A DNA stretch of 64,000 nucleotides, from NCBI RefSeq assembly GCF_000732725.1, contig NZ_JPNB01000001.1, forward strand, positions 1,860,001 to 1,924,000. The letters are read 5' to 3'. Position 1 is the stretch's first letter. Each line of letters opens with the position of its first letter. The notes under the pieces are model-generated. The model saw nothing but the letters and a program-made list of their open reading frames with translations, ran no database searches and was not told the DNA's origin. This DNA comes from Kineothrix alysoides (GTDB taxonomy: Bacteria; Bacillota; Clostridia; Lachnospirales; Lachnospiraceae). Shown one piece after another: positions 28,286 through 49,635 of the stretch. Both the position numbers and the translations under genes were made by a program.

Positions 28286-28402
28286 TTCCTCACCCCCGTT
28301 TTCTCGTTTTAAACTATAAAAAGTACACAACGCAGACTCTTCCAAAGAAAGACAATACTTCTACGTTTTACCATAATAAGGGCTTTCCTATAATATATAT
28401 AT

Positions 28403-28629
28403 AGAAGAAAAGTGTGCTTCACACATTCTCTCTGCCAAGCGCTTTGGCTGCACAGCTTTTGTTCCGCGCGCGTAGCTGCGCATAATTACTTCTGTAATAG
28501 GGGCTCCTATTACAGAACAAAAGTGTGCTCCGTACATTCCCGCAGCCAAGCACTTTGGCAGCATAGCTTTTGTTCCGCGCGCGTAGCTGCGCATAAATTA
28601 CTTCTGTAATAGGGGCTCCCTCCTATTAC
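28403..28629. repeat. Tandem duplication of a ~111-bp palindromic element
   Basis: Two imperfect copies (28403-28513 and 28514-28629) share long identical blocks such as TTTTGTTCCGCGCGCGTAGC. Each holds a near-palindrome GCCAAG-CGCTTTGGC, a GC-rich GCGCGCG-N-GCGC block and the hairpin TTCTGTAATAGG-GGCT-CCTATTACAGAA (12-bp perfect in copy one). An open frame on the minus strand repeats MRSYARGTKA in both copies, most likely by chance. It looks like a non-autonomous intergenic repeat rather than a gene. Confidence 0.75.
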
Positions 28630-28637
28630 AGAAGTAA

Positions 28638-28677
28638 AGTCCTCTTGTAGATATCCGCTTACAAGAGGACTGTTTTT
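28638..28677. terminator. Intrinsic terminator-like hairpin beside the repeat
   Basis: AGTCCTCTTGTA / TACAAGAGGACT forms a perfect 12-bp stem with a 10-base loop. On the plus strand it is followed by G and six T residues; on the minus strand, where the SPFH gene ends about 30 bases before, the T-run is weak. Likely a terminator of the SPFH gene or bidirectional. Confidence 0.55.
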
Positions 28678-30221: not shown

Positions 30222-30713
30222 ATGCTGAAACATACTTCTTTTTCTTTAACTCGCAAAGTCATTTCTCTCATTTTGTGCCTGCTGTTTCTGGTAAGCTGTA
30301 TCACCGGATGTCAAAAATCAGGAAATAGTACAGTTCCCGGCAAAGATTTGACGAAGGTTACTTTAAACGAAGTGGCGCACTCGATTTTCTATGCTCCCAT
30401 GTACGTGGCAATCGAGGAAGGCTACTTTGCCGATGAAGGCATCGATTTAGTTCTCGTTACTGGCTTTGGTGCAGACAAAACGATGACCGCCGTACTCACT
30501 GATGAGGCCGATATCGGCTTTATGGGAAGCGAAAGCACTATCTACACATATATCGGAGGCACGCAGGACTATGTGGTCAACTTCGCACAGCTCACCCAGC
30601 GCGCCGGAAATTTCCTCGTATCGAGGCAGCCTATCGATAATTTTTCATGGGATATGCTGACCGGCAAAAAGATACTTGGCGGAAGAGCCGGTGTTGTCAT
30701 TATAAATATGTAA
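30222..30713 (+). pseudogene. Truncated ABC transporter substrate-binding lipoprotein (NMT1/ThiY-like)
   Basis: The first 157 or so residues match a NMT1/THI5-like periplasmic-type binding protein: lipobox ITGC (Cys near residue 29), then EVAHSIFYAPMYVAIEEGYF, DIGFMGSEST and GKKILGGRAG. The usual continuation (GGMPEM...) is missing; after 30,690 the frame reads VVIINM-stop. Full proteins have ~330 residues, so more than half is lost at the left border of the accessory island. A second oddity: the GGAGG-spaced ATG (30211) stops after three codons, leaving the ATG at 30222, 12 bases from GGAGG. Confidence 0.75.
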
Positions 30714-33743: not shown

Positions 33744-34178
33744 TTATTTTTTATAATTCTCTACTATATCTAATCGATTTTGATGACGACCATGCTCATA
33801 TTCCCCTTCTAACCATATTTTAACAATCATTATAGCTAACTCACTACCTACAACTCGGGCCCCAAGAGATAAAATATTTGAGTTGTTATGTTGTCGCGAT
33901 AATAAAGCAGAGTATGGTTCGCTACATACAGCACATCTAATTCCTCTAATTTTATTCGCCGCAATAGCCATTCCTATTCCCGTTCCACAAAATAATATTC
34001 CCCTTTCAGCATCTCCACGAACTATCATTTCCGCAACTTTAAAAGCATAGTTAGGATAGTCCCCCCGTTCTCCTTCATATGTTCCTATATCCATATAATC
34101 AATATTATTCCTCTCAAAGAAATCAATTATAACGAGTTTTAAAGAAAACCCTGCATGGTCACTTCCAAGTATAATCAT
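33744..34178 (-). CDS. rpiB: RpiB/LacAB-family sugar-phosphate isomerase
   Basis: A 144-residue isomerase of the RpiB family. GSDHAGFSLK at the start, the catalytic-Cys loop FCGTGIGMAIAANKIRGIR and SRQHNNSNILSLGAR are all present. RpiB converts ribose-5-P and ribulose-5-P; some members act on allose-6-P or galactose-6-P. Last gene of a six-gene operon and only 4 bases behind an epimerase most like D-allulose-6-phosphate 3-epimerase, so allose-type chemistry is as likely as housekeeping ribose chemistry. Confidence 0.88.
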   Translation of the reverse strand: MIILGSDHAGFSLKLVIIDFFERNNIDYMDIGTYEGERGDYPNYAFKVAEMIVRGDAERGILFCGTGIGMAIAANKIRGIRCAVCSEPYSALLSRQHNNSNILSLGARVVGSELAIMIVKIWLEGEYEHGRHQNRLDIVENYKK

Positions 34179-34182
34179 ATTA

Positions 34183-34878
34183 TTACACCCCGTTCATACT
34201 TCTTATAAATTCATTTTTCATAGTTTCACACGCAATTATCAAGTCATTATGCTTACCAAACAAAGCAGCTTCACCTAAAACAAATGATTCTGCACCAGCA
34301 TCATATAGCTTTTTGTAAGTAGAATTCTTAACTCCACCATCACACTGAATTATAAAATTACTATTTTGTTTTTCCTTTATTTCTCTTGCTATTTTTATCT
34401 TGTTTACCATAGTCTCTATCAATGGTTGTCCAACAAAACCTGCGTCTACCATTAACAAAGTTAGTATATCTATATCTCTCAAAAGAGGTACAATTGAACT
34501 AATAGGAGTTAATGGGCACAAAGCAATTCCAACTTTTCTTCCTTTAGATTGGATATCATTTATTAATCTAAAGGCACGCTTTGTAATAGATTCTGCATGA
34601 AGAATTATTGTATCCGCGCCATTATCAAGTAATATATTAATAAACTTTTCTGGCTGCTCTACCATTAAATGTACTTCTATCGTAAGATTTGTTACCTTTC
34701 GTACAGATTTAACAAATGAAGGAGATAGATGAATAGAATCACAAAAATGTCCATCCATGATATCAATATGTAAAATATCAAAATACGTGTTTAATATCTC
34801 TATTTGACCTTTCACTTCGAGCAAATCCATACACATTAGTGATGGCGAAAAAAACACTTTTTTATCAATATAACTCAC
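34183..34878 (-). CDS. Ribulose-phosphate/allulose-6-phosphate 3-epimerase family protein
   Basis: A 231-residue TIM-barrel epimerase. The start FFSPSLMCMDLLEVKGQIE, HIDIMDGHF, EVHLMV, VDAGFVGQP and IQCDGGVKNSTYKKL match the family, and the SPSLMCMDLL opening is closer to AlsE than to standard Rpe. The metal-binding His and Asp residues are in place. GTG 34878 lies 7 bases after GGAGG; a TTG 3 bases earlier is too close. Fifth gene of the operon, between the serine hydrolase and RpiB. Probably supplies or consumes a keto-sugar phosphate in this pathway. Confidence 0.83.
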   Translation of the reverse strand: MSYIDKKVFFSPSLMCMDLLEVKGQIEILNTYFDILHIDIMDGHFCDSIHLSPSFVKSVRKVTNLTIEVHLMVEQPEKFINILLDNGADTIILHAESITKRAFRLINDIQSKGRKVGIALCPLTPISSIVPLLRDIDILTLLMVDAGFVGQPLIETMVNKIKIAREIKEKQNSNFIIQCDGGVKNSTYKKLYDAGAESFVLGEAALFGKHNDLIIACETMKNEFIRSMNGV

Positions 34879-34898
34879 CAATCTCCCTCCTTTTTTTA

Positions 34899-35846
34899 TT
34901 ATTTAAATAAACCTAAACAATCAGACACCGGTTGCGTATCTGATTGATATCCTGTCGTGGTGATTACAATCTCTTTTTGGGGAATAATTATTAAATATTG
35001 TCCATCTGTTCCATCACAATAATACGTTCCGTCTTCACAAATCCACAAGTTTAATCCGTAGGACCATTTAGGGAAAGATCTTTCTGCAATGTATCTATGC
35101 GTTGGATGAGCCACTTGCGGTGTTCGCATTTTTTCTATCCATTCTTTAGAAACAATATGTTTACCATCATAAACACCATTATTGTAAATAAGTAAACCAA
35201 TTTTATGCAAATCTTTGTTTAATAGTTTAAGTCCCGTGCACCCAGCTGTATACTTGCCAAATTTTTTCCAAGTATAATCTTCAATATTAAGTTTTGAAAA
35301 AATATATTTATCAACAAAGTATTCTGCACTCTCACCAAGATACTCTGTAATCAAAGTTGATATAATAAATGTTCCTGCATTAGAATATACAAAATGTGAA
35401 CCAATTCTTTCTGTAATCGGATAGTTGACAACGTAATTAACTAAATTATCTTCATCTTGCATTTTTACATCTGCACTAAACATAATTCCTTTACCATGTC
35501 CTAAGGTAATTCTAAAAAGATCAATTAACCTTATTTGATTCCACTTTTCTTCCTGTTCAGGATGTGATATCTTTGCATATTGTGACACAAATTGCCAGAT
35601 AGGTGTTTCAAGACCTATTTTTATATTACCAAAATATAAACCTTCTTCAATAGCTGCTCCTACTGCAAGGCAGAGTATAGGCTTTGCAATAGACCTAATA
35701 TCAACTTTTTCTTCTTCTTTAAAAAAATGCTGATAATGCTCTCCACCACATGAAATGATTAAACTAACCATATCAAGATGTTTACCATTCTTATCTAGCA
35801 TATTATTCATCTCATTGACTACTTTGTTAAAAAGTTCCTTTTTCAT
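34899..35846 (-). CDS. Beta-lactamase-fold serine hydrolase (class C/PBP-like, PF00144 type)
   Basis: A 315-residue protein without signal peptide, so probably cytosolic. The catalytic SxxK is S52-I-A-K55 (RSIAKPILCLAVG) and the second motif is YSN in VYSNAGTFIIST (about residue 157). The third motif region is DGTDGQYLIIIP. Such proteins act as esterases, amidases or transacylases as well as beta-lactamases. AGGAGG precedes the ATG. Position between the IucA/IucC-like gene and the sugar enzymes suggests that it trims or transfers an acyl group on the pathway product; this is inference. Confidence 0.8.
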   Translation of the reverse strand: MKKELFNKVVNEMNNMLDKNGKHLDMVSLIISCGGEHYQHFFKEEEKVDIRSIAKPILCLAVGAAIEEGLYFGNIKIGLETPIWQFVSQYAKISHPEQEEKWNQIRLIDLFRITLGHGKGIMFSADVKMQDEDNLVNYVVNYPITERIGSHFVYSNAGTFIISTLITEYLGESAEYFVDKYIFSKLNIEDYTWKKFGKYTAGCTGLKLLNKDLHKIGLLIYNNGVYDGKHIVSKEWIEKMRTPQVAHPTHRYIAERSFPKWSYGLNLWICEDGTYYCDGTDGQYLIIIPQKEIVITTTGYQSDTQPVSDCLGLFK

Positions 35847-35857
35847 AATAATTCCTC

Positions 35858-37087
35858 CTATCGATAATTGGGATTTGGATGTGGGTAATATGTCCTTCGA
35901 GTACCCGGCTTTCGCTCTGTGTTGTCACAATAATACCAAAAGCCATCTGGTGGGAAGTAATTAGGTGGTAGTCTATAAGTATATATAGAATTAACATAGT
36001 CTCTAACATATCTCTGAATTTGTTTTACATCTAAGTTATATTCTTTAGCCACTACATTAATAATCGGTGAGATAAGATATTCTCCAAGTTTAAAATCATA
36101 CATATATGATGCCCTAATATCATAAAAATATAAACTTCTATCAAAGCAACATTGTGGATAGCTCTCCCAATTCGTATTTAAACCTAAAAATTCTGCCAAT
36201 GGAATATCCTTATCAACCGAATCCATGTCTTTAACCACCATTCTAACTATATTATAATTTTCATCTACTTCAAAAAGGCAGTTTTGTCCATGACATTCAA
36301 TATGAAATCCACAATTAAGCACAATATTCCAGTAACAATCAACAATAATTGTCAAAATTCTCCTTAAATATACCAGTGGGTCATAGCCTCCCAGTCTAAT
36401 AAATTGAATGATTAATGGATTCTTTATCTCATTATCTTTTTCATAAAATAAAGAAAACCCTGGAATAAGTTGGACTTTCTTTTTGATATAAGGATACGGG
36501 GTTTTTTCTCTAAATATTACTCCCCATTCATAAATATCATTTCCTACCGGAAGCATGGTAACTTTTGCCGAAGGCTCGAGTTGCATTGACATAGTATTAG
36601 GAAAGCCACCTTTATCAAAAACTCTTTTTAACGTCTGGCTTGATTCACAACTTGCAAGACAATGTTTTTTTGAGAGTTGTCTATCTACGCGACCAATCCT
36701 TGATACATCATATGTAAGTTTTAGATATCCCGAAGGATATCTATTCCACACAAACATTGTCCGTCCTCCAGATGTCGGAGAAACTTCAAATTCAGAATTT
36801 CTCAAGATTCTATTGGACATATTTAAAATGCGTGATAAAACTGAATCTGGGTGCGCAAAGTTATGTTTATTTGACCAAAACTCTGGTAATTCTTCCCCCA
36901 ATATATATGATTCTAGATCACTATCGTCAAAATAAAAAATAGGAAACTGACTTTTTCCAGTAAAAGGATTTGTTTCTTCTGAGGTTTTATTCACTTCTGT
37001 AAACCCACTAGGCGAACCACTATTCATATATCTTTCCATAAAAATATAAGAATCATTCAAATCTGTAAAGAATTTCCTTGCATCCAT
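35858..37087 (-). CDS. Short IucA/IucC-like (NIS synthetase family) protein
   Basis: A 409-residue protein. Several blocks match the IucA/IucC superfamily: YLKLTYDVSRIGRVDRQLSK (~121-140, like the KLSLDI...R region), VIFREKTPY (~190-198), HIECHGQNCLFEVDE (~262-276, the EAHGQN signature) and VVKDMDSVDKDIP (~284-296). NIS synthetases adenylate a carboxylate such as citrate and join it to an amine or alcohol. Usual proteins have ~580-620 residues, so N-terminal parts are missing or replaced. No siderophore exporter or receptor is nearby. GGAGG lies before the ATG; it starts one base after the toroid gene. Confidence 0.6.
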   Translation of the reverse strand: MDARKFFTDLNDSYIFMERYMNSGSPSGFTEVNKTSEETNPFTGKSQFPIFYFDDSDLESYILGEELPEFWSNKHNFAHPDSVLSRILNMSNRILRNSEFEVSPTSGGRTMFVWNRYPSGYLKLTYDVSRIGRVDRQLSKKHCLASCESSQTLKRVFDKGGFPNTMSMQLEPSAKVTMLPVGNDIYEWGVIFREKTPYPYIKKKVQLIPGFSLFYEKDNEIKNPLIIQFIRLGGYDPLVYLRRILTIIVDCYWNIVLNCGFHIECHGQNCLFEVDENYNIVRMVVKDMDSVDKDIPLAEFLGLNTNWESYPQCCFDRSLYFYDIRASYMYDFKLGEYLISPIINVVAKEYNLDVKQIQRYVRDYVNSIYTYRLPPNYFPPDGFWYYCDNTERKPGTRRTYYPHPNPNYR

Positions 37088-37088
37088 T

Positions 37089-39449
37089 TTACGCCTCCTT
37101 CACATCATTTTTTTCGTTCCTAAAAATCTTATCTTTTACATATCCATAAATACCCATAAATATTAATCCAAGTACTACTCCAATGAATCCAAAAATAAAT
37201 TCAGAACGCCAATTACTGAATAATTCTTTAATTACTTCAGGGTGGTCTGTAAGGCCTATACCAACTAATATCATCATAAATCCAAGAATTAATAGGGTAA
37301 CAAAAGAAGAAAAAAATAATAACTTATATACTTTTTTACGCGCCATTGTACTGTTAAGAATATTTATCAATTTGTTCTTTTCCTGGAGATTCTCTCTTAT
37401 TATTTGTTCTCTTTTCTGAATCTCTTCTAATGAACATTGCAGCGCATCAGTATTATTAATTATATTTATTTGGTTTAAAATCTGATTACTCTTTATATTC
37501 ACATAATTAAAAAAATCATTTGCAGAAAAATTGTTAATTTTATCATATAATCCTAAAGCATATATAGATTTAACAGTAGCATTGATATCATTTTCCCAAT
37601 TATATTCAATCTTATTATATTTAATAAATATAAATTCAATTGCATTTAAAATGCTTTCATTAACAATTTCTATTTGATGACCAAGTGCTTTGTCATCCAA
37701 TGTAATAATTTGAAATAACCACAAGACTACTTCTCCTGTTTCACTTGTATTTCTCCATGATCCGTCGGTATTTTGCTTAAGTAATAGAACATCGATAATT
37801 TCCTTAATTATTTCTTGTGATGAATTTTCCGGAAGATAATTACTCTTTTTTAATTGTGTTGTCAACCAAATAATTTGGCATAACAAGACATTACTACAAT
37901 AATTATAATTTGCGGATCTGTATGCTGAGATTACTAATAAAGCCATTTTATTTATTTCAGATTTATTAGCATCATTATCCACGCATCCAATTACATACAA
38001 TGTTCTAAGTATATATACTTTATCTTGATTGGAAATATCAGCTCCAAATAATAAATTATATATCCAATCTTTCACAGCATCATACACGTGTTGTATAGGA
38101 TATTGTTTATATATTTCTTGTTCAGACTCTTTATTCGGCAGAAAAATAAAATATAAAATTTCTAACATCATACACGTAGCATTTACTACGCAATCATAAC
38201 TATTAATTAAGACATTGTTTTTAGTAAAGTGCTTTGATAATTCCTCGTAAATGTATGGTAAGTATTGGATGTAATCAATATTTAATTCATTCATCATAAG
38301 TAGTGTGTAATTAAACGTCCAGATACTTCTTCCCCAAAGTTCTGGAAAAAATTTACGCGCAAGCCAGTTTGCCACCTCATCAACCATAGTATTAATAGAT
38401 GTTGCATTTGAATAATGATGACAAACTAAACCTTGCATCGTTTCAACTAGATGATAAACTGTTAATGCATTTTCTGATTCTACCGATTTATGCCAAAAAT
38501 TACTTACCTCTTGAACCTCATAATCTGGTGAGAAAACAAATATATTATGAGGTAATTCAAGCAACATTTTATCATTAATATCTTCATAAACTCTAAATGG
38601 AATTTTTACTGTTTTTGCTCTTAATATGTATGAAGACATGATGTTGTTTGTTTTTCCATTACTTTTTCTAACGAATGCAAACTGTGTGATTCCTTCAGTA
38701 ATATAAACAAGTATATTTTCAATTAATTCATCATGTGATGCCCAATCAAGTGCCATTGTAGTTACAACAACTCGTTCTGATAAATTTCCTGAACGTAATA
38801 ATAGTTTCCGATGTTTTTCAGGAGCATCAATTAATTCGGGTGGAATTTCATTTTGCAATATTTCATCTGCCAATAAAGTTATATATTGAGAGCCATCCAC
38901 TGGAACAATGTGCGAGCGATATTTATGTACCATAAAAGAATTATGTATGCAATGATATTCAATTAATTGATTTGTGATTTTTGTTGGATATGATAAAATT
39001 GGATCTTCACATGCTATAGTTGCCACCCCTTCAGCCGAAGATTTTTCTGTTCTATCATAAATATAAATATCATACTTGTCAGGCAAAAAACCAATACTCT
39101 TAAATATATTTCCGCTTTTTATACTAAGTTTTTTTTGTGATGAAACAAAAACTCCCTTACCACTATTAATGAAAGTTTCGGTTATAGATTTGTTCCTTAA
39201 CAATATATTATATAAATCTAAAGAATTTGTCGCATTAGTTGCAATGAACAAACTATCGAAGGTTAACAAAAATAATTCATCTTCAACTTTAAAAAGACGT
39301 TTTATATTATACTTATCAAAAACAACAAAACTATAATACTCTTTTTTATTATCGCCTAGTGTAACTGGTTTTTCTAGCACAGCTAAAGAATCCGCAAAAG
39401 CAGAATGTGCCACTTCATTTTCATTTATAATGATAGCAACCCGAAACAT
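37089..39449 (-). CDS. Large membrane-anchored protein: amidotransferase-like N-terminus, alpha-toroid-like middle, two C-terminal helices
   Basis: A 786-residue protein I cannot assign to a named family. Residues 1-200 have an alpha/beta look with FRVAIIINENEVAHSAFAD and LFIATNATN...FINSGKGVFVSS, resembling class-I-amidotransferase-like domains without a visible Cys triad. Residues 220-270 (ERVVVTTMALDWASHDELI) link to a helical region (~345-650) with one QNTDGSW (559-565), the hallmark of squalene-cyclase/prenyltransferase toroid repeats. A coiled coil (665-700) precedes two membrane helices (708-732, 750-771). Second gene of the operon. Enzyme or scaffold; function unknown. Confidence 0.7.
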   Translation of the reverse strand: MFRVAIIINENEVAHSAFADSLAVLEKPVTLGDNKKEYYSFVVFDKYNIKRLFKVEDELFLLTFDSLFIATNATNSLDLYNILLRNKSITETFINSGKGVFVSSQKKLSIKSGNIFKSIGFLPDKYDIYIYDRTEKSSAEGVATIACEDPILSYPTKITNQLIEYHCIHNSFMVHKYRSHIVPVDGSQYITLLADEILQNEIPPELIDAPEKHRKLLLRSGNLSERVVVTTMALDWASHDELIENILVYITEGITQFAFVRKSNGKTNNIMSSYILRAKTVKIPFRVYEDINDKMLLELPHNIFVFSPDYEVQEVSNFWHKSVESENALTVYHLVETMQGLVCHHYSNATSINTMVDEVANWLARKFFPELWGRSIWTFNYTLLMMNELNIDYIQYLPYIYEELSKHFTKNNVLINSYDCVVNATCMMLEILYFIFLPNKESEQEIYKQYPIQHVYDAVKDWIYNLLFGADISNQDKVYILRTLYVIGCVDNDANKSEINKMALLVISAYRSANYNYCSNVLLCQIIWLTTQLKKSNYLPENSSQEIIKEIIDVLLLKQNTDGSWRNTSETGEVVLWLFQIITLDDKALGHQIEIVNESILNAIEFIFIKYNKIEYNWENDINATVKSIYALGLYDKINNFSANDFFNYVNIKSNQILNQINIINNTDALQCSLEEIQKREQIIRENLQEKNKLINILNSTMARKKVYKLLFFSSFVTLLILGFMMILVGIGLTDHPEVIKELFSNWRSEFIFGFIGVVLGLIFMGIYGYVKDKIFRNEKNDVKEA

Positions 39450-39477
39450 GGTTTATCCCCCTCTCCATGAATAAATA

Positions 39478-39594
39478 TTATAAACTTCTGATTTTGAAAT
39501 TGAATTTGATTAACCTTATAAATTTTTCAATTGCTAGAATAATTGTCCCCAACGTAACTATTATCTCAATTAGTGTACGTATTTTATACCACAT
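39478..39594 (-). CDS. 38-residue single-pass membrane peptide at the head of the operon
   Basis: GAGGAG lies 8 bases before ATG 39594; the frame ends in TAA at 39478, 28 bases before the 786-residue protein. The peptide has a basic N-terminus, one hydrophobic helix (LIEIIVTLGTIILAIEKFI) and a basic C-terminus. It is likely a real small membrane protein, co-transcribed with the five genes behind it. It may stabilise the large membrane protein or act as a toxin-like peptide; nothing decides between these. Confidence 0.55.
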   Translation of the reverse strand: MWYKIRTLIEIIVTLGTIILAIEKFIRLIKFNFKIRSL

Positions 39595-39732: not shown

Positions 39733-39758
39733 AAAAAGGCCCATAAAATAAAATGGGC
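39733..39758 (-). terminator. Intrinsic terminator before the six-gene operon
   Basis: GCCCAT and ATGGGC pair over an 8-base A/T loop, followed on the minus strand by C and five T residues. It lies about 180 bases behind the chimeric pseudogene and would shield the six-gene operon from upstream transcription. Confidence 0.55.
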
Positions 39759-39935: not shown

Positions 39936-40418
39936 CTAGTAAGCGCTTTCTTCGAAAACATGATACACCACCTTATATCCAATTTCTTCATAGCTACCTA
40001 ATATGTATTTAAATTCTTCTCCTCTGTTTTTAGTAAGCATTATTGACGGTGCTTCTAAAAGAAACATTTGGGGAAATCCATTGTGAATAATATTGAATAT
40101 ACTATTGTTGACACCATTTTGGTCAATTTTTATTTTATGAGTAAAACTAAAGCCTTGGACAATAATTTTTCCTATAATAATATCTGTATATGACAATTCT
40201 TTGGGTGAAATATCTTTTAAATCTCTATAGATAAAATTATTATTTGCTGTCACCTTTGGATATATAGTTGCACATTCCTTATCATTATCAAATGCACATA
40301 TAACTTCAAATCCTGCTTCTTTAGGGTATTTTTCACTCCATTTCCCAGCAAAAGAACCCAATTCAGATAAAGCAGTTTCTTCCGTTGGGGTTGCGTACAC
40401 ACGTTTCAGGTCTGTCAT
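39936..40418 (-). pseudogene. Chimeric remnant: IS256 transposase start fused to a cytosine methyltransferase fragment
   Basis: The 160-residue frame begins with IS256 transposase sequence (MTDLKRVYATPTEE, then FAGKWSEKYPK, residues 1-33). Without a break it continues as a decayed C5 cytosine methyltransferase: GFEVICAFDNDKECATIYPK, LKDISPKEL, then DIIIGKIIVQGFSF, where the family has PPCQGFS, so the catalytic Pro-Cys is gone. The end (FLLEAPSIMLTKNRGEEFKY) aligns with the ENV region. Neither part can work. Such fusion marks a deletion or recombination scar. Confidence 0.75.
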
Positions 40419-40640
40419 AAGTGGTTTAATCTCTTTGTAGGAAACGAATTTTGTTGTGTTTCTGATTTGATGGATGATGCGCTGCTGGATTTCGGTTTTG
40501 GGGTAAACGGCTTATATCTCCTGAGGAAAACCGGAAATCCCATCCACACAAGCAATCAGAATATCCTCTACCCCATGGTTTTTAAGCCGTTCAAAATAGA
40601 AAGCCACCACCTTGATTACTAGTAGTTGAACTATTGCTTT
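40319..40640 (-). mobile_element. IS256-family (Mutator) transposase internal fragment
   Basis: On the minus strand, reading FERLKNHGVEDILIACVDGI then SGFPQEI, stop, AVYPKTEIQQRIIHQIRNTT and VSYKEIKPLMTDLKRVYA, all in one frame with a single TAA near 40510. The VEDILIACVDG and AVYPKTEIQ blocks are diagnostic for IS256 transposases. Only about 100 of ~400 residues remain; it passes in frame into the methyltransferase fragment at about 40318. Confidence 0.8.
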
Positions 40641-40930
40641 CTACCCCTTTATTTCCTTTTAATTTCATCAAATAGTAAATTCTATATACATGACATTCTT
40701 TACCACTCAAAGCCCCATCCCCCTAAAACATGCTTTCATTAACAAATGTCCTCCGATCTATTTCATAAATTAATTCCCGTATCTTCTCGAACCTCTCTTA
40801 AAACTGCCCGTTTAGAAGTCTCTCACATATACACGCCGCCACCAATGCTATAATAAGTAGTCATCTAGGATACTGACTTTGGGGGATAATAGAAAGCCCA
40901 TTGTATCGGTTGTTTTAGACCTTTTGAATA
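40641..40930. other. Intergenic stretch after the AIPR gene
   Basis: About 290 bases between the IS256 fragment and the end of the AIPR gene. No gene or convincing terminator was recognised. Confidence 0.4.
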
Positions 40931-43021
40931 TTATACTGGTATTTGCGCTTTTCGGATTTTTTCTCTAACTTCCATAATTCGCTTAAATTGAAATTGAGGG
41001 AGGCCTCTCTTACCGGCACAATATTCAGCAGCAAGTTTTAAAGTCTGAAAATCGCTACCATTAATGACGCCTTGTGAATTAGCAATCTCACAAAGAGCGT
41101 CCCAATAGTCTGCTCCAAAGTTAAAAACATCTACTTCAATGGATATACCATCTATGAACTTTTGGTTCTTTTTTGCAGCACTCTTTTCATCATGAATATC
41201 GTCCTTACTAACCAAAAATGCCTTAGTCAAAACGCTTAACTCGTAGGATAACTGCTTTACTTGCTCCCAACATTCGCTTTTCTTACAATAGGTCTCCACA
41301 TTACCGATGTTAGGACGAAAAAAAACCTCGCGCGTAATATAGGCAATCTGCATGATTTCTTCAATCAGAAATTCCGGTAACTCTTGCTTATCCCAAATAT
41401 ACCTGTAGTTCATAAACAAACCAAACTTTTGTACTTCATATATAAGTTTTGCAAAAGCATATGTCACATTCTGAATCAAGTAACCATTTCGTTCTTTATA
41501 CCAGTCTTGCTTTAAAATGGTCTTTCTGATTGTACTAAAAAGAATCGCTTTTGCAATCAAATCGCGAAAATAAGATTCATTGAAAACAGAAGGATCAGCT
41601 TTCCACTGCTTCTCCATTTCAGTTTGAAAGCGCACCGAGTTAATTTCTCCCCCCCACGAAACATGGTACGGCAACATTTCAGCGGAGTTTATGTACCGAG
41701 CCAAGTCTTTCTTATCGAACCGTTGGTTGGATGGATTAATCCTTTCGTACGTTGCCCTTTCACCTTTTGTCATTTTCATTTTCGGTTGTTCGTATTGACC
41801 ACGCGAGCGTTCAAAAAACCAGATTGTTTGGTATGGCAGTCCTTTGGATGGTGGAGCGTAGAGCTTACGTGAAAATTCTTCTATACGTAGATAGAACTGA
41901 TGATTTGATACCAAGTCTGCTGCTGTGACTTTATTTTGGCTGTTAGCATATTGTGATGTGTTTCTTATGAACTCATCGCCCTCTTCGCCCTCATCAAGGG
42001 TTACAGTCAGTTTCATCTGCACTAAAATTCTGTCTAGTGGAGCGTTATCCTTGATGCTTGCTGATGCTAATGATGCAGTAGTTTGGCCACCATTAATTAT
42101 TTGAAAATCAGTGAATGACGTAATACAATGCCCCTTACACGGAATATCTTCAATAGTTACGCTTTTCGCTGTGGTTGAAATTCCATTATTATAGGAAAAA
42201 AAGTTCTCACTCTCATTAAGAATCGTTGCTCTAATCCCTTTATTTACACCACCCCGCAATTGTAAGAAAGAGCGAACATTTCTTTCAAGCAATCTTGGCC
42301 CAAATTTTTTATAAATATTTGAAAGGAATTCGCCCGGAACGACTGCCAAATACGCCTCATAACGTCCAGATCCTATATCGGCACGGATACAAGGTATCCC
42401 CTCAGTGCCAAAATCAGTAACTTTGATAATGATATCTTCTTTTTTGGTATTGGCAAGCTGTGCATTATATATTTTCTCCATGTCTATTACATCCAACTCA
42501 ACCTTGTATGTTTTGCCTTGAAACTGAACATCATCTAGATCTATATTTTTAACGCGCTTGCTTAGTTGGTTGGTACTGACAATAAAAAGGTTAACTTTGT
42601 ATATGTCTTCTGCATTTTTCTTAATATCAAGTCCGAGTTGGACAGCAGGGTTAGATTGCTCTCCATTGGAAAAGTACCCCTTGAGTGCATTCTCAACAAA
42701 ATTAATCATCTGCGCGCTATGAGTGCTAATATCTGTATTGGTAATACTAGCTATCTCATCTGAGTTGAAGTCTGCATATAGCAAGTTTATCGTATTTGTG
42801 GACAATTCCAGCGAGCCTGCATGTATAAGCATACTCTTGAATGCACGAGTTCCTGTTGGTACAGAGAAATGGCACTGGTCAATAGAAGACAAAAGAGACC
42901 AGTCACTGACCATTATTTCAGATACCAAATCAATAAATACCTCATGTGCATATCGCTCTTCTTCAATTGCAGTTGCTTTAATTTGATTTATGTAATATTC
43001 TCTGTATTCCAACAAGTCCAT
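40931..43021 (-). CDS. AIPR-family (abortive infection phage resistance) protein
   Basis: A 696-residue protein with the AIPR core: RNVRSFLQLRGGVNKGIRAT, then FFSYNNGISTTAKS and FQIINGGQTTASLASAS (about residues 245-320). Family members are found in phage-defence and restriction loci; their biochemical activity is not settled. An N-terminal ~200-residue region may be a nuclease-like or recognition domain. AAGGAGG precedes the ATG. Last of five tightly packed genes after a cytosine methyltransferase, so likely an effector or accessory of that system. Confidence 0.85.
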   Translation of the reverse strand: MDLLEYREYYINQIKATAIEEERYAHEVFIDLVSEIMVSDWSLLSSIDQCHFSVPTGTRAFKSMLIHAGSLELSTNTINLLYADFNSDEIASITNTDISTHSAQMINFVENALKGYFSNGEQSNPAVQLGLDIKKNAEDIYKVNLFIVSTNQLSKRVKNIDLDDVQFQGKTYKVELDVIDMEKIYNAQLANTKKEDIIIKVTDFGTEGIPCIRADIGSGRYEAYLAVVPGEFLSNIYKKFGPRLLERNVRSFLQLRGGVNKGIRATILNESENFFSYNNGISTTAKSVTIEDIPCKGHCITSFTDFQIINGGQTTASLASASIKDNAPLDRILVQMKLTVTLDEGEEGDEFIRNTSQYANSQNKVTAADLVSNHQFYLRIEEFSRKLYAPPSKGLPYQTIWFFERSRGQYEQPKMKMTKGERATYERINPSNQRFDKKDLARYINSAEMLPYHVSWGGEINSVRFQTEMEKQWKADPSVFNESYFRDLIAKAILFSTIRKTILKQDWYKERNGYLIQNVTYAFAKLIYEVQKFGLFMNYRYIWDKQELPEFLIEEIMQIAYITREVFFRPNIGNVETYCKKSECWEQVKQLSYELSVLTKAFLVSKDDIHDEKSAAKKNQKFIDGISIEVDVFNFGADYWDALCEIANSQGVINGSDFQTLKLAAEYCAGKRGLPQFQFKRIMEVREKIRKAQIPV

Positions 43022-43024
43022 CAG

Positions 43025-43954
43025 TTATACCTCCTTGAACCGCTCTAAAGAGTTGATAATAAGCTCATAACTCACTTTACAAATTTCCTTGTACTTTATG
43101 TCATTTTCCTGTAAACGTGGGAATGTATTGTCAACAAGATACGATTGTTCTGAAACTACATTAAACTTCTCGGAGCAGCACTCGTCGGTAAGACAAATTC
43201 CGTAAGTTTGAATCTTACTAAGAAAGAGTTCCTTAGTCTCGTCTGTATCAATTCTTTGCAGTATACTATCAAATAACTCGCCAATACTCGACTTCCCATT
43301 GGTAAACATAGGTGACATGGACTCCAATTTTACAATAACAAGATGTCCGGGGATTGCTGATGACAACTGGGATACCGACGAAATTTTGACGCTAACTGAT
43401 GAAGCAGAAACAGCTTTAATTTCGAACCAGTCTAAATCCTTGGAAAAGTCCTTTGCTGTTCCGTCCGTTCCACTCCAAGATCTTATGGCATCGGTAACGC
43501 CATATTTTTCGACAAGTTTTGTATTGAGAAAATACAATTCGCCAAATAGTCCTTTTATTAACTCGGCAGAAATCACAGCATTACTTTTTTTAAACAAGGT
43601 CTTCCATATATGAAAGCGATTTTTCAAATAAACAAGAGCTTTTTTTTCATCATTTGTCCCATTAACAGCCTTAACAAGATCACTACAAAATGAATAAAAC
43701 ACTTGCTTCGCTGTAGACTCAAGTAAGTCGAAGTTAGTCCAATAAATACGCTCGCTTTCCTTTCCTTGCACCACCTTTAAAAGTTTTGTAGAATCCATTT
43801 TTGGAGGAACAACCGTAGATAAAAATGAAAGCCGAGGATTACCCTCATTACTAATCCCATAATAGACTTTGACTGCAGCATCTACATCTATTAGTTTCTG
43901 CGAACCCATCTCATTTGAAATAGTTTCGAACATTTCTTTCCCATAATCACTCAT
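43025..43954 (-). CDS. PD-(D/E)XK motif protein (DUF4420 type)
   Basis: A 309-residue predicted nuclease. GLFGELYFLN (about residues 145-154) gives the first Glu and KDLDWFEIKAVSAS (~183-196) the D...ExK catalytic core of the PD-(D/E)XK fold. It would be the DNA-cutting subunit of the system. The start overlaps the end of the Z1 gene by 8 bases and AIPR follows 3 bases later, so it is translationally coupled to both. Confidence 0.82.
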   Translation of the reverse strand: MSDYGKEMFETISNEMGSQKLIDVDAAVKVYYGISNEGNPRLSFLSTVVPPKMDSTKLLKVVQGKESERIYWTNFDLLESTAKQVFYSFCSDLVKAVNGTNDEKKALVYLKNRFHIWKTLFKKSNAVISAELIKGLFGELYFLNTKLVEKYGVTDAIRSWSGTDGTAKDFSKDLDWFEIKAVSASSVSVKISSVSQLSSAIPGHLVIVKLESMSPMFTNGKSSIGELFDSILQRIDTDETKELFLSKIQTYGICLTDECCSEKFNVVSEQSYLVDNTFPRLQENDIKYKEICKVSYELIINSLERFKEV

Positions 43955-46733
43955 TGCTTAACTCCTCCTCGTCAAAATCATCGTCAGCGTTTATCGCGGC
44001 TACCATCACAAGATTGCCTCTGTACACTATCCGTTCCTTTGCTTCTTTGGATGGAAATCCAACAGCAAAACCAACAAGCAAATCTGAACCAAATGCTTCT
44101 TTTACAGAGACATAACGATCACGCTCTGAAAGCGACAGCTTCGAATTGTCAATTTTAAGATCGATAAAGTAAATAGCCAATAGAGGTCGCTCACGCAATT
44201 TTAACCAGTCCGTAGCAGTCAACTGATCAGCTGGCTTGTTTGCATTTCGTGTCCTTTTCTTTGAAAGTATTTCTTGACGCTGTTCAGGAGTAATTGTGAC
44301 GCCACTATTAAAAATACCGGGATCAACAATTCGATTATTTGAACCACCCATTCGAATATAATTTTCGTCAGATGCCCCCAAATGGAAAGTACGCTCTGTC
44401 GCGGACAGGGATTTGCCTTGGATATAAGAAGTTCTTTCCGAATCGCCAGTTGCAATAACAACATCCCATTCGGGAAATAGTTTACTCTCAGATGTATACG
44501 CTGCCAAATTAACACAATCAAATCGCTGATTAATGCCACGGCCACTTGGTATAATAATTTGCTTTATAAGCGAAGCGATGTCATCTTTGCTCACATGGCT
44601 CATCATAAAGCGATTATCGATGGTAACGAACAATTTACCTTTTTTCGCCTGTGCCGCAATAAATGTTTCTACAACCAAATGATTTTTTCGATTTTTTTCT
44701 ACATCCTTAAACAACTTTGAAGTATCTGCGTACACACCTCCATAATTGACATAGTGTTCAAAGACCTGCGTGTTCCGCATTTTGTTCCTTGCTGTAACAA
44801 GCAGTGTGGTTTCGAGTGTCGCAGGTGACTCTTTGACCATAAGTCCGAAGTCTTCAGGCTTCTTCCCCTGTAGTTCCATCTCTCTAAACTGCTCTTTTAA
44901 ATCTCTAACTGCATCCAGTACCGAACCAAAACAATCAATACTTGCCTGTGACATATAAATGCGGCATAGATCCTGATAGCGGGGACGATAGCCAAACCAA
45001 CGACACATCTGAAGCAATGTGTCATATGCCGCAGCACTTCGGCTATAGTAACTCACACAAAGCCCCTCCAGTGTAAGCCCACGCGAGAGCACAAAACCCC
45101 CTATTACAATTACCCTTGATCCTATATCGGCATGGGCATTGTAATCATATCGAAAATCGCCACTATATCTGTTATTAATAATAGTTGTTTCAACCAACCT
45201 TATTTCTGCATACAAGCCATGCTGAATATCAACCCAAGCAAAATCATTACGGACTTGCGCATAGAAATCCGTCTGAGTTTCATCTCCAACAGTGAACAAA
45301 TCGTATATTTTACGCATCTCCGCGTTTTTTATAAAATCTTTCTCAGGTTTGTATGCATCCTGCTCGATAATGTTCTTCAGCAATGCTAGATAACTCTTTA
45401 CAGCCTCACTAACGCTCTCTTGGGGGGCGTTTAACGCAGTTACATTAATCATCATTGAACGATGCTTGTACTTATCACCACGCAAGCTACGAACAACATT
45501 GTTAATTAAAAAAGACAAAATAGCCTCTTTTAAACTGTCTGGTAAAGCAGAAACGACAAAGTCCTTTTTGTGCTTGACTGGAATAAAGTTTTTTTCCTCA
45601 GTGTCCAGCATTCTAATCATCGAAGGAATAGAACCATCTCGAGGGAAAACGCTCTCTCCGCCAAAATAGTAATCTGGTGCGTTAAGTTGGACAATAAAAT
45701 CGTGAGGGAACAAGTCTTGGTCGTCATCGTTTACATCAAAAGGGTTTATAAAGATGTTTGCAAATGGTGTAGCCGTAAAACCAATATAAGAAGCAATAGG
45801 AAATTTATTGTATATGTCTCGTATTCTACGATTTACTGCCGAGGGGTCATATTCAGGCCTTTTTGTGTTGGGAGACGCATTATCAGCCTCGTCATCAATA
45901 ATTAGGATGCTATTTCCCGAAATGTTATCACCTGGCTTCAGCCAGTCGTGAACGCTCTTGAGAATAGAAGCGTTTTTCTTAACCACCAAAATAACAGGCT
46001 TATTGAAATCCATAGCTTGGGCATTTGTGTTCTTTTGAATGAATTTTTTAAAATCCCAGTCAGCATTTGTAAGAGGAATGGCGTAATATTGATGAACAGA
46101 TTCGCCAACGCCTATGTAGTTTATCAACCCGCTGCCAATGGAATTACTATCTGCACCAATAAAGCCCATATCTACACGATCCTGAGTTTGCTGTCGTAGA
46201 GAGTTCGTCAGGCCAGCAAGTAAAACAATGACATGGTACCCAAAATCACAAGCCAAATTTATTAGTCCCAGATAGTTTGCAGTCTTTCCCGCTTGCACAT
46301 CCCCCATAACCATACCACGCTTTTTTGAGTCCATAGAATCTGGAGATTCTTTTGGGTTAGCACATCTCGAAAGCGTACGTTCACAATTGACTTCTAGATT
46401 ATCAATGACATCTTCATCCCATCCAGATTGACGGAGGTAGGTACGATAACGTTCAAAATAAGGGCGTTCACCATCACGCTCTGATGTAAACCAAATATCA
46501 CTACTCGAGTCATTTACAAGAATGTCTGGATCAAATGTCTTGATTCCTACATTGGTTTCGTATCTACTTACCACTTCGTTCAGAATGCGATCAAAATCTT
46601 TATCTGTCCGGAAAACTCTTATTACACTTAAAATAGTTTCCGCTTGGGTTACTAGCTCTTGATGCGCTGTTGGTTTTTTCTCTAAGAAAGCTTCAAGCAT
46701 TGTTAACGCCTTTGTAATAGTGTTATTATCCAT
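43947..46733 (-). CDS. Z1-domain ATPase/endonuclease-associated protein
   Basis: A 928-residue protein. It has a Walker A loop MGDVQAGKTANYLGLI, Walker B ILIIDDEADNASPN, helicase-like YIGFTATPFANIF, VIGGFVLSRGLTLEGL and the arginine motif LLQMCRWFGYRPRY, the last being the Z1 domain. Known members sit beside MORC-type ATPases and DNA methyltransferases, where they are thought to drive ATP-dependent DNA translocation or restriction. ATG 46733 is 10 bases after AGGAGG and the gene overlaps the MORC gene by 8 bases. Full length. Confidence 0.88.
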   Translation of the reverse strand: MDNNTITKALTMLEAFLEKKPTAHQELVTQAETILSVIRVFRTDKDFDRILNEVVSRYETNVGIKTFDPDILVNDSSSDIWFTSERDGERPYFERYRTYLRQSGWDEDVIDNLEVNCERTLSRCANPKESPDSMDSKKRGMVMGDVQAGKTANYLGLINLACDFGYHVIVLLAGLTNSLRQQTQDRVDMGFIGADSNSIGSGLINYIGVGESVHQYYAIPLTNADWDFKKFIQKNTNAQAMDFNKPVILVVKKNASILKSVHDWLKPGDNISGNSILIIDDEADNASPNTKRPEYDPSAVNRRIRDIYNKFPIASYIGFTATPFANIFINPFDVNDDDQDLFPHDFIVQLNAPDYYFGGESVFPRDGSIPSMIRMLDTEEKNFIPVKHKKDFVVSALPDSLKEAILSFLINNVVRSLRGDKYKHRSMMINVTALNAPQESVSEAVKSYLALLKNIIEQDAYKPEKDFIKNAEMRKIYDLFTVGDETQTDFYAQVRNDFAWVDIQHGLYAEIRLVETTIINNRYSGDFRYDYNAHADIGSRVIVIGGFVLSRGLTLEGLCVSYYSRSAAAYDTLLQMCRWFGYRPRYQDLCRIYMSQASIDCFGSVLDAVRDLKEQFREMELQGKKPEDFGLMVKESPATLETTLLVTARNKMRNTQVFEHYVNYGGVYADTSKLFKDVEKNRKNHLVVETFIAAQAKKGKLFVTIDNRFMMSHVSKDDIASLIKQIIIPSGRGINQRFDCVNLAAYTSESKLFPEWDVVIATGDSERTSYIQGKSLSATERTFHLGASDENYIRMGGSNNRIVDPGIFNSGVTITPEQRQEILSKKRTRNANKPADQLTATDWLKLRERPLLAIYFIDLKIDNSKLSLSERDRYVSVKEAFGSDLLVGFAVGFPSKEAKERIVYRGNLVMVAAINADDDFDEEELSNE

Positions 46734-48192
46734 TACCAAGCAACCTCCTTGTGATATAGTCAGTTTTTTCTTTCAGATTGCTGTATACCTCAGTTGAAAG
46801 CAATCTACTAAGAAGTCCAGCCTTATCATTTGGCTTTGCCATAGCCAAAATATCTGTTAACTCGCTTATTTGTTGTTCCTCATCAAACATATCCGTTCTA
46901 TCTGATATTCGAAGAGTGTCATCTGTATGGTCGTTCCAAATAGAATGTTTTGGCAGTGAGGTTTCTATTTGGGATAACAGAATTTCAAGAAGCTTCGCTT
47001 CGCCATGCCCCAAATTATCAAATAATTCAACAACAAGTGGATTATCACGATTAACGCTGTACAATGCCGTCTTCTCTTGCATATTTATTGTCCGTATCCA
47101 CACAGGGCTTTCTGTTCGTTGCTCCTTTATACCAGGGAAACGTACAGTTTTCTTACTACGAACAAATGAATCCTTGACGGAGGCTCGGAGTTCCTCTCGG
47201 ATTACATCTGGTATTCGTGCGGAGGACTTCTTTACATCCAACATCCAAATAGAATCCAATGTTGAGGGGATATCCACTTGAACACGAGCAAGCTTATTCT
47301 GCTCACTTTTTAAACCCATTCGAAACCAACTGCCCCACGAAATAAGTCTTCTATTTCGGTAGAGGTAGAATCCTTGGTCGTCGTGAATACTCTTCGGATA
47401 TCCCAATAAGGCCTTCTCCTCGTTCATGATAGTGTTCCAAAAGGGGAGTGTATAAGGTGTCACATCTATGTAATATCCATTAACCTTCAATCGCTCGGTG
47501 TGCCCGGTTTGCTGTCTTGGGGCAGAGCCACATAGGAACGGGTCACGCTTTTCAATTCTTTGATAGTTAAAATAAATTTCATGGCTTGCATAAAAACGAT
47601 GGAACACTAATTCCACATGTTTCTTTGCTTCTGCTATCATCTCACGAAAGGTATCCTCAAACTTCTTTGAATGTCCCTGAATTTTATCAAAATCCTGCCA
47701 AATCACCAGAGTTCCTGATGTAAATTCAAACAATTTATCTATATTAGGCAACTTATTAATTTCATCTGTATCTAGAACTCGCAAATTCCATTTGTTCTTT
47801 TCTTCAATAAGATTCAGGTCAAATGTAATAGCACCGCATTCATCGCCGACCTTGCTTGCAACCGTAAATATACGACATTGAGAGAGTGAAGCAGCTTTTA
47901 ACCCCAAGCCAAAACGTCCAAGTTCCAACTCGCTGTCTTCTCGTCCTTCTCGAATAGAGCCGAGAAGCATCGCATTCTCTAGTTCGTCATAGTTCATACC
48001 TATACCATCATCAAGGAATTGGACATAGTTGGAACTGCCGCCTACTTCACTGATTACGTTAATATGGCGCGCCTTTGCAGAGATACTGTTATCAATAATA
48101 TCCGCGACTGCTGTTGAAAAACTGTATCCGATCGCACGTATACCAGTTATTAACGCCTTAGCCGGCGGTTCTTTAACAATGATTCTCCCCAC
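46726..48192 (-). CDS. MORC/MutL-like GHKL ATPase
   Basis: A 488-residue protein with a GHKL ATPase domain: AVADIIDNSISAKA (D31, N34), FLDDGIGM (59-66) and LGRFGLGLKAAS (91-102) are the N, G1 and G2 boxes. The rest includes a probable S5-like transducer domain and a helical C-terminus. Prokaryotic MORC-like ATPases occur in restriction-type operons and may form ATP-gated clamps on DNA. GTG start after GAGGAG with a 5-base spacer. Placed between the methyltransferase and the Z1 gene. Confidence 0.87.
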   Translation of the reverse strand: MGRIIVKEPPAKALITGIRAIGYSFSTAVADIIDNSISAKARHINVISEVGGSSNYVQFLDDGIGMNYDELENAMLLGSIREGREDSELELGRFGLGLKAASLSQCRIFTVASKVGDECGAITFDLNLIEEKNKWNLRVLDTDEINKLPNIDKLFEFTSGTLVIWQDFDKIQGHSKKFEDTFREMIAEAKKHVELVFHRFYASHEIYFNYQRIEKRDPFLCGSAPRQQTGHTERLKVNGYYIDVTPYTLPFWNTIMNEEKALLGYPKSIHDDQGFYLYRNRRLISWGSWFRMGLKSEQNKLARVQVDIPSTLDSIWMLDVKKSSARIPDVIREELRASVKDSFVRSKKTVRFPGIKEQRTESPVWIRTINMQEKTALYSVNRDNPLVVELFDNLGHGEAKLLEILLSQIETSLPKHSIWNDHTDDTLRISDRTDMFDEEQQISELTDILAMAKPNDKAGLLSRLLSTEVYSNLKEKTDYITRRLLGNG

Positions 48193-48206
48193 GACAGCTC
48201 CTCCTC

Positions 48207-49361
48207 TCAGTTATCTGAAATCGGTTTTTGGGCAATTCCATACTGTCCAGCAAACATTTCACGGAATATTTCGGCCAGCACATTTACGACTATGGAATTA
48301 CCAATCAACTTGTTCATTCTCCTATATGTAAAGTCTAAGTGTATCGTTCTCTCGTATTCCTCTTCTGTGAAGCCCATAAACAAAAACGCTTCACGTATAG
48401 TCAAACGCCTAAAAGTTTTACCCAAAGCTCCTGTGTATTTAAATAGAGCTGCCGTGTATGTTCTGTCCATATTACAAGTTATGGTTCTAATGATGGTATT
48501 CTCATTGGCCACCTTGCCATTTATTGCCCACATCTTCTGCCGAGATGGTGTGGCATTTAGTTGTGCAATATTGGCTTCATTGCGCAACATTTCGCGTTCA
48601 TAATCTAATCTTAAAAATTGAGTTGCATCAAATTTTCGCTCTTGTTTTCCGCAATCAATGCGTTCGGATACTCTAACGAGATTTTGGCCCAGTTTACTTA
48701 CAATAAAAGCTCGAACTCTATCCTGTGGTATTCCAAAGTCGAGTGCATTTAATACCATAGGCACATCGTTTTGATATCCTATTGACTCAAGAAATTCCAA
48801 GAAGGCCTTCAAATCTTCCTTGAAAGCATCACACAACACCGTTTTAACGTTTTCCATCAGCAAATAATCTGGAAGTTTATCCAATGCGTGAAGTTCTTTA
48901 AGAAGACGCTCAATTTCCCATAAAAGTGACGAACGTGTGCCAGAACCCTTTTTCATCCCCTTACCATTTCCACCAGTTGATAAGTCTTGGCATGGAAAAC
49001 TATAAATGAGGAGATCACATTTTGGCATTAATTCGCCTTTAAGTTGCGAAATAGAACCGTAATTTTTACTACGCTTATTAGCAATATAAAGTCGTTCGAT
49101 AACATCCCGATCCAATAAGTTTAAATTCGTCTTACGTACCGAATCGCGGCTAAAATCATATTGTGACAGATACTCCATCTGTTCTTCATAGGAGGGTACT
49201 TCAATAACTTCTTCGTCAGAATGATGAATGGCGTCATAACAAATAATTGCATCTACCATCCACTCGCTTATGCCAACTATTTCATAATCTGCACAAAGGC
49301 GATCTAAAGCAGTAGCTTGTGCACCGATACCGGCAAAAGCCTCAAATACACGCAAAGCCAT
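48207..49361 (-). CDS. DNA (cytosine-5)-methyltransferase, Dcm type
   Basis: A 384-residue C5 methyltransferase. Motif I is FEAFAGIGAQATAL, motif IV IYSFPCQDLSTGG with the catalytic Cys, motif VI LLMENVKTV, motif VIII FGIPQDRVRAFIV, and motifs IX-X RRLTIREAFLFMGF and KLIGNSIVVNVLAE. It should protect host DNA at the site used by the downstream genes; the target sequence is not deducible. ATG 49361 follows GAAAGGAGG; the further upstream extension overlaps the regulator gene. Head enzyme of the defence operon, behind an XRE regulator. Confidence 0.93.
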   Translation of the reverse strand: MALRVFEAFAGIGAQATALDRLCADYEIVGISEWMVDAIICYDAIHHSDEEVIEVPSYEEQMEYLSQYDFSRDSVRKTNLNLLDRDVIERLYIANKRSKNYGSISQLKGELMPKCDLLIYSFPCQDLSTGGNGKGMKKGSGTRSSLLWEIERLLKELHALDKLPDYLLMENVKTVLCDAFKEDLKAFLEFLESIGYQNDVPMVLNALDFGIPQDRVRAFIVSKLGQNLVRVSERIDCGKQERKFDATQFLRLDYEREMLRNEANIAQLNATPSRQKMWAINGKVANENTIIRTITCNMDRTYTAALFKYTGALGKTFRRLTIREAFLFMGFTEEEYERTIHLDFTYRRMNKLIGNSIVVNVLAEIFREMFAGQYGIAQKPISDN

Positions 49362-49416
49362 AATAGCAACCCCTCCTTTCTCATTTTTATAAAGTTCATT
49401 ATTTTGAATCGCTTTC

Positions 49417-49635
49417 TTAAGTATTGTCTGCCTTTTCAGGAGTCGAATCAACAATATCAGCAATATTGCAATTTAGAGCTTTGCATATTTTTAATAAAGA
49501 AGCCATCGTAACAATCTCTCCCTTTGATAGCTTTGCAATAGTCGCTGGACTAACATGCGCCATTTTGCGCAACTGAGTTTTGTTTATGTCTTTGTCGATG
49601 CATAACTTCCATAATTTCTTGTAGCTAACAGTCAT
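49417..49635 (-). CDS. XRE-family HTH controller protein of the defence operon
   Basis: A 72-residue single HTH protein (KTQLRKMAHVSPATIAKLSK then IVTMASLLKICKALNCNI). Size and place, 55 bases ahead of the methyltransferase, fit a C-protein-like controller that times methyltransferase and nuclease expression after transfer to a new host. AAAGGAGG precedes the ATG. Operator boxes were not identified. Confidence 0.8.
   Translation of the reverse strand: MTVSYKKLWKLCIDKDINKTQLRKMAHVSPATIAKLSKGEIVTMASLLKICKALNCNIADIVDSTPEKADNT

Follow-up and report, generated by a model that had tools for sequence, protein, structure and literature searches.

What the products of a compact six-gene operon in Kineothrix alysoides do together is the question raised by this locus, which lies in a 64-kb stretch of the genome (the window; the whole genome comprises 4.68 Mb in 3 contigs). 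An earlier note had described six minus-strand genes with gaps of 1–28 bases, and we located all six ORFs at the same positions, together with their gaps and ribosome-binding sites. Read from the first gene, and all on the minus strand, they encode a 38-aa membrane peptide with a single span (39478–39594), a 786-aa protein (37089–39449), a short NIS-type (IucA/IucC-fold) synthetase of 409 aa (35858–37087), a PF00144 serine hydrolase or acyltransferase of 315 aa (34899–35846), a 232-aa protein resembling D-allulose-6-phosphate 3-epimerase (AlsE; 34183–34881), and a 144-aa RpiB-family sugar-phosphate isomerase (33744–34178), with intervening gaps of 28, 1, 11, 17, and 4 bases. The gene starts lie behind purine-rich ribosome-binding sites, the weakest being at RpiB, and the AlsE gene begins with TTG followed by an in-frame GTG. 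The six genes have a G+C content of 25–35%, compared with 39% in the window. Both boundaries previously proposed were found as well: broken IS66 ORFs lie downstream (∼31.2–33.4 kb), and a terminator-like hairpin of 6 pairs lies upstream (39739–39758, minus strand). With four terminator-like sites in the region versus 2.1±1.4 in shuffles, the upstream hairpin is weak by itself. Another of these four sites (34946–34918) falls at the 3′ end of the hydrolase gene, immediately ahead of AlsE.

The 409-aa protein, which the earlier note had called IucA/IucC-like, falls under the Pfam cut-offs when searched alone (IucA_IucC, E = 0.0019, 18.2 of 25 bits; FhuF, E = 0.0038, 18.2 of 25.2 bits). The assignment gains its support from a profile of seven NIS relatives, which matched AsbB (8.5e-8) and AcsD (0.0017) in the PDB, and from a Foldseek search with the predicted model, in which 23 of 23 matches at E≤0.001 were NIS synthetases; profile and model searches thus both point to the NIS fold, with the models of the 409-aa and 786-aa proteins being of low confidence (pLDDT 50.5 and 41.8, respectively). 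The equivalents of AcsD R281, T282, K293, R305, H444, Q446, N447, and D464 are retained in all seven relatives and that of E442 in six, the Methylocystis relative carrying Q. The S279 equivalent is G in two of the seven (the window protein and that of a second locus, L008, described below), and the T301 and N302 positions, which belong to the citrate pocket in AcsD, are occupied in all seven by G or S and by R, respectively. The AcsD report names the general-base glutamate along with R305 and H444 and states that the E442-to-Q change abolishes activity in that enzyme (PMC3323832). We placed the remaining AcsD labels through the profile alignment. The window protein is not full length: by the model alignments, ∼90–145 N-terminal residues are absent, model residue 14 aligning with IucC residue 101 and residue 23 with about residue 144 in several others. 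It therefore resembles AcsD, AsbB, IucC, and DesD in its predicted fold and ATP-site residues but not in length (409 versus about 540–620 aa). Judged from these alignments and models, the protein is a short NIS-type synthetase that retains nearly all of the ATP-site residues and lacks the N-terminal part.

Short NIS proteins also occur in alphaproteobacteria (Methylocystis, Gluconacetobacter), where they are 405–407 aa long, 22–24% identical, and carry the same conserved residues; the one that was scanned passes Pfam IucA_IucC (3.5e-8). Unlike the Lachnospiraceae set, these genes neighbor DUF1259 and chromate-resistance genes, with an MFS transporter in Methylocystis; the Gluconacetobacter neighbors, including a ChrB-like one, were judged partly by eye. 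The DUF1259 gene adjoins the short NIS gene in both (L003, L004, L011, and L013).

To our knowledge, NIS synthetases are known almost only from siderophore pathways, which, along with the MFS transporter that adjoins the Methylocystis relative, speaks for the window operon being an ordinary siderophore or metallophore pathway. Such a pathway is nevertheless very unlikely here, given an operon without transporter, receptor, or amine supply and the G or S and R found at the T301/N302 positions in every relative. Compared with known NIS synthetases, the window protein differs in its S279-to-G change and its altered T301/N302 positions, and its operon has no siderophore genes. A siderophore product is unlikely. 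The arginine at the N302 position may point to a more acidic substrate, and the presence of a short NIS protein on a mobile island, with an unclassified membrane protein and no transporter, suggests chemistry reused elsewhere than in siderophores.

The 315-aa protein had been called a serine hydrolase, and the family score (PF00144, 4.5e-15, 56.1 bits versus a cut-off of 27) upholds this. Like other PF00144 hydrolases and acyltransferases, it retains SxxK (at 52) and YSN (at 154, a YxN motif). Its N-terminus has no hydrophobic segment, and from its sequence the protein looks cytoplasmic. It differs from 3-succinylated cholic acid synthase (NF045925), against whose profile it reaches only 74.5 bits of the 800 demanded. 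Relatives occur in 7 of 150 family genomes at E≤1e-20, the own genome included, and in 41 plasmid records, 15 of which were listed; besides the L008 copy, the relatives are at most 30% identical among the matches listed.

The 786-aa protein has no family over cut-off in Pfam or NCBIfam. It is predicted to comprise an N-terminal α/β part (residues about 1–350), a helical part (about 359–665) with QxxxGxW at 559, a long helix thereafter, and two hydrophobic C-terminal helices (706–737 and 747–772) that are predicted membrane helices; a weaker hydrophobic stretch (419–438) falls inside the helical part. The putative toroid of the earlier description has behind it a single QxxxGxW motif and the helical prediction, the model being too poor to add to it, and we found no support for the cyclase role that had been suggested. 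The 38-aa peptide contains one hydrophobic stretch (residues 4–29).

Does this set of genes occur together elsewhere, as the check proposed in the earlier note asks? The NIS gene is rare: it is present in 2 of 397 family genomes and in 1 of 16 genomes of the genus, the own genome being counted in each case, and a scan of genome contigs gave six NIS loci. For a four-gene core the answer is yes in one other genome, that of Bacterium 1xD8-48 (L008), where it recurs in the order peptide, NIS, hydrolase, 786-type protein; because this core recurs, even in a differing order, the operon is more than a chance grouping. The identities are 53% for NIS, 59% over 247 aa for the hydrolase, and 29% for the 786-type protein. 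The peptide relative (L008 5086–5193) shares 9 identities in 21 aligned positions; among 5000 full shuffles none reached this local score, and among 5000 segment-preserving shuffles one did. The core relative at L008 6566–9833 is damaged: the hydrolase has a stop inside the first catalytic motif and the 786-type protein ends before the membrane helices, and therefore the L008 copy is decaying. The L008 contig belongs to a draft assembly and ends near the core. The genes beside the core are weakly conjugation-like: one protein matches TrbC and TrwL under the cut-offs, another contains a C39-like peptidase domain, and four of the five neighbors scanned matched no NCBIfam family. A more distant arrangement is found in the goat-omasum Lachnospiraceae genome RGIG2885 (L005, L009), where Nudix, histidine phosphatase, NIS (34%), and membrane protein genes stand together. 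The membrane protein there has two overlapping hydrophobic stretches at 18–66 and a TPR-like look, the latter without Pfam support.

The two remaining genes are assigned by family scores (PF00834, 1e-50, for the 232-aa protein; PF02502, 1.2e-54, for the 144-aa protein) and by their closest counterparts, both of which belong to a Chloroflexota D-allose operon (alsE, rpiB, alsK, transporter). Against NCBIfam NF007266 (AlsE), the 232-aa protein reaches 262.3 bits, under the cut-off of 271, and against the Rpe family it reaches 170.6 bits (cut-off 212.6). In the tree, it groups with AlsE rather than Rpe, paired with the AlsE of the Chloroflexota operon (46% identity, support 91/91) within a group of seven that includes one long-branch row (90/91); no set with strong support (95/80) contains it. 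With 43% identity to the window AlsE, a plasmid protein that carries an rpe annotation falls inside the 41–46% range of the AlsE rows, though it groups elsewhere. For RpiB, the counterpart in that Chloroflexota operon shares 56% identity with the window protein. The own genome holds four members each of the AlsE/Rpe-type and RpiB families, to which the window proteins are less close (27–33% for AlsE; 48%, 46%, and 29% for the other three RpiB copies). The AlsE-like and RpiB-like labels given earlier are borne out. Unlike in a D-allose operon, an allose kinase and a sugar transporter are absent among the six operon genes.

Whether this pair belongs with the NIS core is less clear. AlsE matches reach at most 32% in the L008 genome, which tells against the earlier proposal of a single system, and at most 35% in the goat-omasum genome. 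A realistic, if less than even, possibility is that the operon combines two independent sets, with an AlsE-RpiB pair acting on rare-sugar phosphates as a hitch-hiker beside the four-gene core: in L008 the membrane protein directly follows the hydrolase with no AlsE between them, RGIG2885 has Nudix and histidine phosphatase genes instead of AlsE-RpiB, and the last part of the hydrolase gene contains a terminator-like hairpin. Against such a division, hydrolase and AlsE are only 17 bases apart, with a strong ribosome-binding site in between, which suggests one transcript, and the draft state of the L008 assembly, with its contig ending near the core, weakens the comparison.

The operon was said to lie between two mobile blocks and beside a restriction operon. 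The mobile and defense surroundings were found; in place of two mobile blocks, a single integrated island of 38.9 kb holding both operons is the better description. Its left part spans 30692–64000 of the window, and it continues about 5.6 kb past the window to an extended coordinate of about 69596. In congeners, the DNA left of window position 30691 joins the DNA at extended coordinate 69597 of this genome. The left flank was matched in 15 of 16 genus genomes (own included); among five congener loci, four are continuous across the junction (L043, L044, L045, and L047), which is the empty site, and L046 matches on the left flank only. The insert splits a gene for an NMT1/THI5-like substrate-binding protein and carries a large serine recombinase at its end (L051 5673–7610); no transfer genes were seen among the island proteins scanned, which were a subset of the ORFs. 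The neighboring Mza-type operon (39936–49463) gave PADLOC matches to MzaB, C, D, and E, MzaD being the weakest (32 bits). It includes two cytosine methylases, one of half length (39936–40418) and a fuller one (48207–49463) that was left out of the PADLOC scan.

Systems that pair an enzyme with a membrane effector offer an analogy by which infection would lead the NIS protein to make a small signal, with the two-helix membrane protein as effector. The island shared with the Mza-type operon, the L008 core beside genes weakly resembling conjugation genes, the two neighboring hydrophobic helices in each of the window and RGIG2885 membrane partners, a membrane protein that diverges faster than NIS or hydrolase, and the rarity of the NIS gene all fit this. 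We consider it unlikely, since PADLOC gave no family at E≤0.1 for the five larger operon proteins (the set scanned), the L008 membrane protein has no membrane helices, our literature search yielded no paper on such a gene set or system among the matches listed, and location in a defense island is association only; a signaling or defense role has low probability. More improbable still is a specific form in which a NIS-made intracellular acyl-conjugate signal would control a two-membrane-helix effector in a mobile defense or competition system, with interchangeable tailoring modules (AlsE-RpiB-hydrolase or Nudix-histidine phosphatase). Its basis is association only: the location on the island, paired hydrophobic helices in two different membrane partners, and the faster membrane-protein divergence. 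If true, it would mean a defense or competition signal derived from siderophore-type chemistry.

We tentatively favor, at somewhat less than even confidence, a mobile accessory cassette for a small molecule, in which an acyl conjugate would be formed through an acyl-adenylate and would involve a membrane partner. The product of the operon is probably a small molecule. The short NIS synthetase would activate a carboxylate with ATP and join the resulting acyl-adenylate to an amine or alcohol, and the serine hydrolase would move or remove an acyl group. As a guess, the small membrane peptide and the helical protein anchored in the membrane might be the targets of the product or might handle it, and, equally as a guess, the acceptor may be D-allulose- or D-allose-6-phosphate that AlsE and RpiB make from fructose-6-phosphate. 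From the families we infer adenylation and acyl transfer, as well as the epimerase and isomerase reactions. The observed base of the favored reading is the gene order, the NIS relationship with its active-site residues, the core in a second genome, and the island location, to which the membrane protein beside NIS in RGIG2885 and the closeness of AlsE and RpiB to the pair in the Chloroflexota allose operon may be added. Counting against it are an AlsE-RpiB pair seen beside the core in the window alone, with the L008 contig ending; a core found in one other genome only, and damaged there; the lack of an exporter, carrier, or amine-making enzyme among the operon genes; the low-confidence models; and Q in place of E442 in the Methylocystis relative. 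A sugar-linked product, such as the carboxylate that had been proposed, is possible. The NIS protein and its membrane partner offer a concrete, testable enzyme and partner.

Elsewhere in the window, an intergenic repeat at about 28400–28640 (up to about 240 bases) matched no Rfam family at the gathering score and has many scattered copies in the own genome and in two congeners.
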